From NCBI GenBank assembly GCA_007694095.1, contig RECI01000127.1:1-64000 (forward strand): a DNA stretch of 64,000 nucleotides, read 5' to 3'. This document shows, in pieces, positions 38,125 to 39,088 of this stretch. Each line of letters opens with the position of its first letter. Within the stretch, counting starts at the first letter, position 1. Under the pieces are notes generated by a model that was not told where the DNA came from, did no database searches, and worked only from the letters and a program-made list of their open reading frames with translations. Both the position numbers and the translations under genes were made by a program. Source of the DNA: Balneolaceae bacterium. Its GTDB lineage: Bacteria > Bacteroidota > Rhodothermia > Balneolales > Balneolaceae.

Positions 38125-38315
38125 GAAACCACTCAGAAACAGAGATTCTTTTGAACGGAAATCATTGAAAAAAAGCATCTTAAATATCGTCTGTGAACCT
38201 TCCCTATTTTCACGGTTAATTAACATTAATAAGTGCATATGATGACTTCTCCCAAAGGCAATGCTTAACTTATCGTTTAATTAATTAACATGAATAAATT
38301 GCATCCAAAATAACG

Positions 38316-38400
38316 CGGAGGGAGAGGGATTCGAACCCCCGGAGACTTGCGCCTCAACGGTTTTCAAGACCGCCGCATTCGACCACTCTGCCATCCCTCC
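38316..38400 (-). tRNA. tRNA-Ser(UGA)
   Basis: Minus strand GGAGGGATGGCAGAGTGGTCGAATGCGGCGGTCTTGAAAACCGTTGAGGCGCAAGTCTCCGGGGGTTCGAATCCCTCTCCCTCCG; class II long variable arm, TTCGAAT T-loop, anticodon TGA, acceptor stem pairs. Confidence 0.95.
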
Positions 38401-38476
38401 AAAAAACTAAGTAAAAGAACATTCTCAACAATCGCTAATCCTTATGGTAATACTATCTGCAAAAATACGTGTAAAG

Positions 38477-38719
38477 TTAAATAATTCCTTTCATTTTTAA
38501 ATACCTGTAACCGTCAACGCTTTTAAAAAACTGCTCTCTTTTATAAGCTTCTGACTTGGTCTGATGCTCCTCAGAATAAATTAATTTCCAGGGTTTATAT
38601 GCTTTTGTACTTCGTACTTTCCCAGCATTGTGCCTTTTCAATCTTTTATTAAGCTCACTACAGTGACCATAATAATGAGATCCATTTTTTTCGCTTCGCA
38701 ATATATAAGCGTAAAACAA
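38477..38719 (-). CDS. GIY-YIG nuclease superfamily protein (80 aa)
   Basis: MFYAYILRSEKNGSHYYGHCSELNKRLKRHNAGKVRSTKAYKPWKLIYSEEHQTKSEAYKREQFFKSVDGYRYLK; TTG start at 38719. Confidence 0.92.
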   Translation of the reverse strand: MFYAYILRSEKNGSHYYGHCSELNKRLKRHNAGKVRSTKAYKPWKLIYSEEHQTKSEAYKREQFFKSVDGYRYLKMKGII

Positions 38720-38750: not shown

Positions 38751-38833
38751 CGGAGACTTGCGCCTCAGCGGTTTTTCCCATAGGGATCCCTGCGGGGCAA
38801 GACCGCCGCATTCGACCACTCTGCCATCCCTCC
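38751..38833 (-). pseudogene. Truncated pseudo-tRNA-Ser with 22-nt palindromic insertion in the anticodon loop
   Basis: Matches the intact tRNA from the 5' end through the variable arm, lacks T-arm and 3' acceptor strand; insertion CCCCGCAGGGATCCCTATGGGA (minus strand) after TCTTG. Confidence 0.9.
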
Positions 38834-38909
38834 AAAAAACTAAGTAAAAGAACATTCTCAACAATCGCTAATCCTTATGGTAATACTATCTGCAAAAATA
38901 CGTGTAAAG

Positions 38910-38978
38910 TTAAATAATTCCTTTCATTTTTAAATACCTGTAACCGTCAACGCTTTTAAAAAACTGCTCTCTTTTATA
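38910..38978 (-). pseudogene. GIY-YIG 3' remnant (second copy)
   Basis: Encodes YKREQFFKSVDGYRYLKMKGII plus stop, identical to the intact gene's C-terminus; in-frame upstream GNKSTA resembles TKSEA before a stop. Confidence 0.85.
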
Positions 38979-39088
38979 GGCAGTCGACTTATTTCCAGGC
39001 ACTGCAAATTAAACAGCATAAATAATAAGAATTAATTCTATGAGATAATAGTGTATTGATTTCAGAAACAATAACTCTTAATTCATTA

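Follow-up and report, generated by a model that had tools for sequence, protein, structure and literature searches.

A 22-nt double mini-hairpin element splits the anticodon of a truncated tRNA-Ser beside a small GIY-YIG gene in a Balneolaceae bacterium

In the stretch of 64,000 nt from a Balneolaceae bacterium analyzed here (contig RECI01000127.1, positions 1 to 64,000; referred to below as the window), two copies of a tRNA-Ser sequence are located on either side of a full-length small GIY-YIG ORF, which is on the same strand as the tRNAs, and one of them (copy B) is split within its anticodon by a short G+C-rich sequence. The question raised by this locus is what this sequence is and how it came to be present at this position. 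The initial annotation had described it as a 22-nt insertion in the anticodon that is missing from the intact tRNA, and a direct comparison of the two copies bears this out. Positions 38751-38775 directly repeat 38340-38364 (96%), positions 38798-39013 directly repeat 38365-38580 (93%), and these two blocks of copy B are parted only by the 22-mer TCCCATAGGGATCCCTGCGGGG (38776-38797, + strand). In the sense of the tRNA, the insert separates nt 36 from nt 37, the second and third bases of the anticodon, without replacing any nucleotide of the tRNA. Besides the tRNA, the duplicated segment extends over the spacer and the final 27 codons of the GIY-YIG ORF. Copy B does not extend beyond tRNA nt 61; because nt 62-86, with the T arm and the 3' strand of the acceptor stem, are missing, it is a truncated pseudo-tRNA, and no tRNA was called at its position by either ARAGORN or Rfam. 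The intact tRNA-Ser(TGA), which is referred to as copy A, is present in 100% identical copies in several congeners. Downstream of this gene, a 17-nt AT-rich direct repeat, TTAATTAACATTAATAA, occurs at 38216-38232 and 38281-38297 (65 bp apart). The features of the locus are summarized in Table 1.

Table 1. Positions of the tRNA-Ser copies, the GIY-YIG sequences and the double mini-hairpin element in the window.
Feature	Position	Strand	Remarks
Double mini-hairpin element, 22 nt	38776..38797	+	T + CCC-ATA-GGG + AT + CCC-TGC-GGG + G
Hairpin 1, CCC-ATA-GGG	38777-38785	+	Within 22-nt element
Hairpin 2, CCC-TGC-GGG	38788-38796	+	Within 22-nt element
Pseudo-tRNA-Ser (copy B)	38751..38833	-	tRNA nt 1-61; element located between anticodon bases 2 and 3
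Intact tRNA-Ser(TGA) (copy A)	38315..38400	-	Uninterrupted counterpart
Small GIY-YIG nuclease ORF, 80 aa	38477..38719	-	PF01541, E=5.7e-16
Spacer between GIY-YIG and tRNA, second copy	38834..38912	-	Direct repeat D1
Second GIY-YIG copy, remnant	38913..38993	-	Residues 54-80, 93% identical; part of tandem duplication

The inserted sequence consists of two tandem mini-hairpins, each with a 3-bp stem and a 3-nt loop, which are joined by AT, and the general layout of the element is T-[CCC NNN GGG]-AT-[CCC NNN GGG]-G. The initial annotation had centered the insert upon the palindrome AGGGATCCCT, and this palindrome is present at 38782-38791 (one match vs. 0.06 expected), but two mini-hairpins provide a better description of the 22 nt, and a single long palindrome was rejected because the loops are anti-complementary. 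In 140 distinct sites, which share some common ancestry and are thus not independent events, the complementarity between loop 1 and loop 2 was below that expected by chance (147 paired positions vs. 181.7, sd 7.8, in permutations), and two copies were fully palindromic where 12.2 were expected. Compensatory changes were also observed in the stems. Of 359 9-mers preceding ATCCCNNNGGG, 305 have the form X3N3X3', and at the 83 sites where the first arm before this sequence is not CCC, X3N3X3' is still paired in 29 (chance 1.6%), with arms such as GCC/GGC, CAC/GTG, CGC/GCG, TCC/GGA, GGC/GCC, and ACC/GGT. Additionally, the same 22-nt layout with other stems is found in pseudo-tRNAs of other genera and in another tRNA in Rhodohalobacter; for example, a T-loop copy in a tRNA-Ser fragment reads T-GCC-AAA-GGC-AT-CCC-TCG-GGG-A (genome G076), and one in a tRNA-Met fragment, likewise in the T loop, reads T-TCC-GAA-GGA-AT-GCC-TTT-GGC-A (G003). 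It is based upon these three characteristics that the element is read as two mini-hairpins. Loop 2 has the sequence TNC in 97 of the 140 sites, which corresponds to C(UNCG)G as RNA and to C(GNA)G on the opposite DNA strand, and loops of both these classes are unusually stable. Folding of the 22 nt as single-stranded DNA gives the double hairpin (-3.4 kcal/mol), and their folding as RNA favors one long hairpin (-9.9); neither fold is exceptional in comparison to shuffled sequences. A search for X3N3X3'-NN-Y3N3Y3' in 400 kb of G003 revealed no general excess of this pattern, except for AT-linked stems made entirely of G+C.

The 22-nt sequence is a member of a dispersed family of elements of fixed length. 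Allowing up to two mismatches, AGGGATCCCTGCGGGG has 80 matches in the 4.56-Mb genome as against none for the reversed control, and the symmetrical pattern CCCNNNGGGATCCCNNNGGG is present at 23 sites vs. none for the reversed pattern, although the statistics are limited by the fragmentation of the assembly and by redundancy among the loci. The 22-mer is also present in exact form in a congener (G011:C242:9850-9871); uniqueness in the genome and in relatives was what the initial annotation had considered to be the expectation for a random indel. Its suggestion of a minimal palindromic element has, on the other hand, held up, in view of the dispersed copies, the fixed length, and the clean insertions and empty sites described below. 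The distribution of CCCNNNGGGATCCCNNNGGG in the genus Rhodohalobacter, to which the genome of the window belongs, is patchy (e.g., 50, 34, 28, 14, and 10 copies per genome, and none in about ten of them), and it is scarce outside this genus, being confined to four genera among 97 genomes of the family. Many further copies in the genome of the window read CAC-AAA-GTG-AT-CCC-TTC-GGG-G (e.g., loci L025, L026, L028, L032, and L039) and are part of a longer repeat context (GGGGCAAATTC...). In another genome (L202, G003:C6:224000-240000), six double-hairpin elements are spaced at 2- to 3-kb intervals between tandem paralogous lipoprotein-type genes, where they sit in flanking hairpins such as TTCACCGCAC...GTGCGGTGAA. 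The possibility that the element marks the end of a repeated mobile gene was considered for contigs C125, C199, and C204 and rejected, as only short flanking repeats are present; no transposase ORF was seen at the two ends checked among these contigs.

The copies of this element behave as clean insertions without target duplication, often into the loop of an existing hairpin. When the joined flanks of each site were searched for in 1.78 Mb of sequence (at most two mismatches in 22 nt), an uninterrupted counterpart was detected for 58 of the 140 sites and for none with shuffled right arms, the copies compared being partly related by descent so that these counts do not represent independent events. 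Examples of empty sites, with the insertion point marked by a caret, are GTCCCCTCT^CAAGAGGGGAC, GGGATTC^GAACCC, CGGTTTT^CAAGACCG, and GACATT^CGATATT. No duplication of the target was found at the element sites, and the junction is pyrimidine-rich on its left and purine-rich on its right, frequently TTC^GA or TTT^CAA. The sequences flanking the element form stems with a mean length of 3.49 bp, in comparison to 2.43 bp for permuted flanks (the maximum of 500 permutations was 2.71), and stems of at least 6 bp are present at 28 sites as opposed to about four in the permutations. As such stems are commoner than in permuted flanks, a substantial proportion of the sites lie in hairpin loops; many other sites have no evident flanking stem. 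By our count, 19 of the 140 sites are in pseudo-tRNAs (nine in anticodon loops, nine in T loops, and one in a D loop), and about 120 lie outside tRNAs. Clean 22-nt insertions in anticodon, T and D loops, in which no tRNA nucleotide is replaced where both edges can be aligned exactly, are seen in several genera and tRNAs.

The truncated tRNA-Ser whose anticodon loop contains the insert adjoins a GIY-YIG gene, and similar fragments beside other tRNA-linked GIY-YIG genes of the class are nearly all interrupted by hairpins. The initial annotation had suggested a link between such palindromes and small GIY-YIG ORFs; this link is supported and extends beyond what was suggested, as hairpins are present in nearly all of the adjoining tRNA fragments both in Rhodohalobacter and in other genera of the class. 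Of 48 pseudo-tRNA regions, whose loci were gathered by means of element or GIY-YIG protein queries and do not constitute an unbiased survey, 83% carried either a double mini-hairpin or a strong hairpin, defined as perfect and 6 bp or longer. The proportion was 12% in random regions from these loci and 28% in intact tRNAs. The remaining eight fragments contain, as judged by eye, mostly decayed, shorter or longer-loop hairpins. The hairpins in these fragments are of two size classes, viz. the 22-nt double form and a 16-nt single form, and the latter (e.g., TCCCGACGTCTCGGGA) takes the place of 7-10 nt in either the D arm or the anticodon arm. Hairpins of 15 to 18 nt (mostly 16 nt), such as TCCCGA-N4-TCGGGA and TCCGCC-N4-GGCGGA, were observed in tRNA-Met, -Gly, -Asn, and -Asp fragments beside GIY-YIG ORFs, where they replace half of the anticodon arm or the D loop (loci L328, L330, L332, L334, L336, L350, L356, L358, L360, and L364). 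At L330 (G003:C10), four tandem 5' pieces of tRNA-Gly, with a spacing of about 101 bp, are present at 1400-1860, followed downstream by an intact tRNA-Gly and by GIY-YIG ORFs, and in each piece half of the anticodon arm is replaced by a 16-nt hairpin. Tandem 174-bp units, each an interrupted pseudo-tRNA-Ser with double hairpins in the T and anticodon loops, were also found in a stretch without a GIY-YIG gene (L188, G018:C182:30080-30632). Because interruptions also occur in fragments that consist solely of a 3' tRNA part, silencing of a second tRNA is not the whole reason for the interruptions, and a broken cleavage site, broken homology with the intact gene, or targeted insertion fits the observations better.

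The GIY-YIG ORF in the window has relatives that are 55-76% identical to it, and all of those with a nearby tRNA adjoin tRNA-Ser. In comparison with its nearest relatives dN is 0.14-0.18 and dS is about 3 or saturated, and these values place the ORF under purifying selection. In Rhodohalobacter halophilus the tRNA-Ser directly follows atpG, with neither a GIY-YIG gene nor a pseudo-tRNA, which indicates that the GIY-YIG unit in the window is an addition. Its GIY-YIG domain, its absence from this homologous allele and its insertion at or close to a putative target are characteristics that the ORF shares with homing endonuclease genes. Related units are found at the tRNA-Ser gene in G003, G011, G012 (in tandem), G016, and G020, and also in G021 (at a contig end) and in other genera. 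Among the 56 small GIY-YIG ORFs found across the class with sufficient flanking sequence, 32 are within 300 nt of a tRNA gene, and all of these are on the same strand as that gene. On a tree of 65 GIY-YIG proteins, which is of modest resolution due to the small number of columns, the type of the neighboring tRNA (39 labeled rows, eight tRNA types) changes 10 times vs. at least 20 times in 300 shuffles, which shows that clades of these proteins track tRNA type.

The best explanation of these observations, and in our assessment a fairly probable one, is that a mobile double-hairpin element and a tRNA-specific GIY-YIG homing cassette have come together at this locus. The GIY-YIG unit would be a homing cassette specific for a tRNA gene, which entered the tRNA-Ser gene and brought with it a replacement tRNA part that restored a working gene, while the original part of the tRNA would have been left behind as the pseudo-tRNA. 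The double-hairpin element may then have entered the anticodon loop of this dispensable copy, probably through a reaction whose substrate was hairpin DNA in single-stranded or extruded form. The element would take hairpin loops as its targets and be tolerated or favored in a dispensable tRNA remnant, and interrupted copies may have been kept because the nuclease could no longer cut them and because recombination with the intact tRNA, which would delete the cassette, could not occur. No mobilizing enzyme was found for the element. As most of its copies are not close to tRNAs or GIY-YIG genes, the preference for loops and the GIY-YIG cassette may be separate phenomena. The many sites lacking an evident flanking stem, and the replacement of tRNA nucleotides by the 16-nt hairpins in place of clean insertion, also speak against this explanation. 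A more far-reaching reading, which we put forward only tentatively, is that GIY-YIG cassettes specific for particular tRNA types split and rebuild tRNA genes, and that the displaced parts are capped in their loops by hairpins of fixed size (22-nt double or 16-nt single) through insertion directed to hairpin loops, which would provide immunity to self-cleavage and loss.

Among the other explanations, one in which the element marks a site of cleavage, i.e., the nuclease scar of the initial annotation, survives best, and we consider it rather unlikely. According to it, the GIY-YIG nuclease cuts tRNA loops and the break is sealed by the capture of a hairpin. The presence of hairpins in nearly every fragment beside a GIY-YIG gene agrees with such a scar, as does the frequent location of one edge of the 16-nt hairpins in a D loop or, for Gly and Met, in the anticodon loop, and genomes lacking the 22-nt element still have 16-nt hairpins at these places (G023). 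However, the great majority of the double-hairpin sites are outside tRNAs, ten congeners possess GIY-YIG genes but not the 22-nt element, and a fixed length of 22 nt with a conserved architecture is unlike random capture. GIY-YIG genes as a sufficient cause of the 22-nt element were rejected, as they are present in all 28 genomes. That the element is REP-like and is mobilized in the form of single-stranded hairpins by a RAYT/Y1 HUH transposase is improbable. The short dispersed hairpins, their hairpin-loop sites and the common occurrence of Y1 transposase genes in the genus are in its favor, but this mode of mobilization was rejected due to its lack of co-occurrence with the element: G011, which is 98% complete, contains 14 copies and no match to Y1_Tnp (PF01797), whereas G023 has 17 Y1 matches and no copy of the element. 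Furthermore, no conserved GTAG-type foot is present and the hairpin is double rather than single. We assign an equally low likelihood to the possibility that these are stable hairpins acting at the RNA level (UNCG-type loops, on one strand) in transcript stability, processing or termination, which were spread by selection and not by transposition. This is suggested by the sequence of loop 2 and by the intergenic settings, but the element occurs in both orientations, the window copy as RNA prefers one long hairpin over two, and the clean filled and empty pairs point to insertion.

The initial annotation had also raised an intron-like hairpin, and a removal of the 22 nt from, or a function of them in, a transcribed tRNA is suggested by the tRNA-like sequence around them, in whose anticodon loop they lie. 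This is very unlikely, and an intron of the group I or bulge-helix-bulge type was rejected, as the host copy ends at nt 61 and removal of the 22 nt would yield no tRNA; moreover, the insert lies between anticodon bases 2 and 3, neither tRNA-detection method recognizes the copy, the element is also present in loops other than those of tRNAs, and its fold is no better than that of shuffled sequences. A random indel, for which only the small size speaks, has a negligible likelihood and is rejected by the copy number of the element, the reversed controls at zero and the filled and empty pairs.

In terms of form, the element is closest to the mitochondrial double-hairpin elements, GC clusters and bacterial REPs, and its neighboring ORF is closest to SegB. 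The double-hairpin or repetitive hairpin-forming elements of the mitochondria of Allomyces and sponges (PMC2800124) are likewise very short, G+C-rich, dispersed single or double hairpins with conserved stems and variable loops, which are patchy among related genomes and whose mobility is deduced from their distribution. The present element shares with them its two adjacent short hairpins and the insertion polymorphism at homologous sites (58 of 140 vs. 0; copy A vs. copy B), but it differs in its bacterial chromosomal location, its constant length of 22 nt, its AT linker, and the way it enters tRNA loops cleanly next to GIY-YIG genes. The likeness is structural only, as 22 nt is too short to establish homology. 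Yeast mitochondrial GC clusters are also short, palindromic, G+C-rich sequences with presence/absence polymorphism and structural constraint, but GC42 is 42 nt in length and tied to AG target nucleotides (PMC4478555), whereas the element described here is 22 nt long and lacks target duplication. REPs, which are associated with RAYT, are dispersed extragenic palindromes of 20-40 nt (PMC3733652; PMC12306157); in contrast to these, two tandem mini-hairpins are present here, the flanks are pyrimidine-rich on one side and purine-rich on the other with no GTAG- or CGTC-type tetranucleotide foot, and, as seen from G011 and G023, a Y1 transposase is by co-occurrence neither needed nor sufficient. SegB of T-even phages, a free-standing GIY-YIG homing endonuclease that cleaves tRNA-containing DNA and drives segmental duplication (PMC13096335), resembles the nucleases described here in that its gene adjoins tRNA genes, but the latter are chromosomal, putative nucleases of 80 aa with a single domain, with seemingly one clade per tRNA type, and they are accompanied by hairpin-interrupted tRNA fragments. 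In a literature search covering few subscription journals, no earlier description was found of hairpin-interrupted tRNA fragments beside GIY-YIG genes or of the 22-nt element.

Ultra-short mobile hairpins are known chiefly from mitochondria, and the mechanism by which they move has been a long-standing question, debated over decades. The clear filled and empty sites on a bacterial chromosome, together with tRNA loops as a target that recurs, make this mechanism testable. In addition, the tRNA-type-specific GIY-YIG genes together with the hairpin-interrupted fragments look like an undescribed lifestyle of selfish genes in essential tRNA genes.
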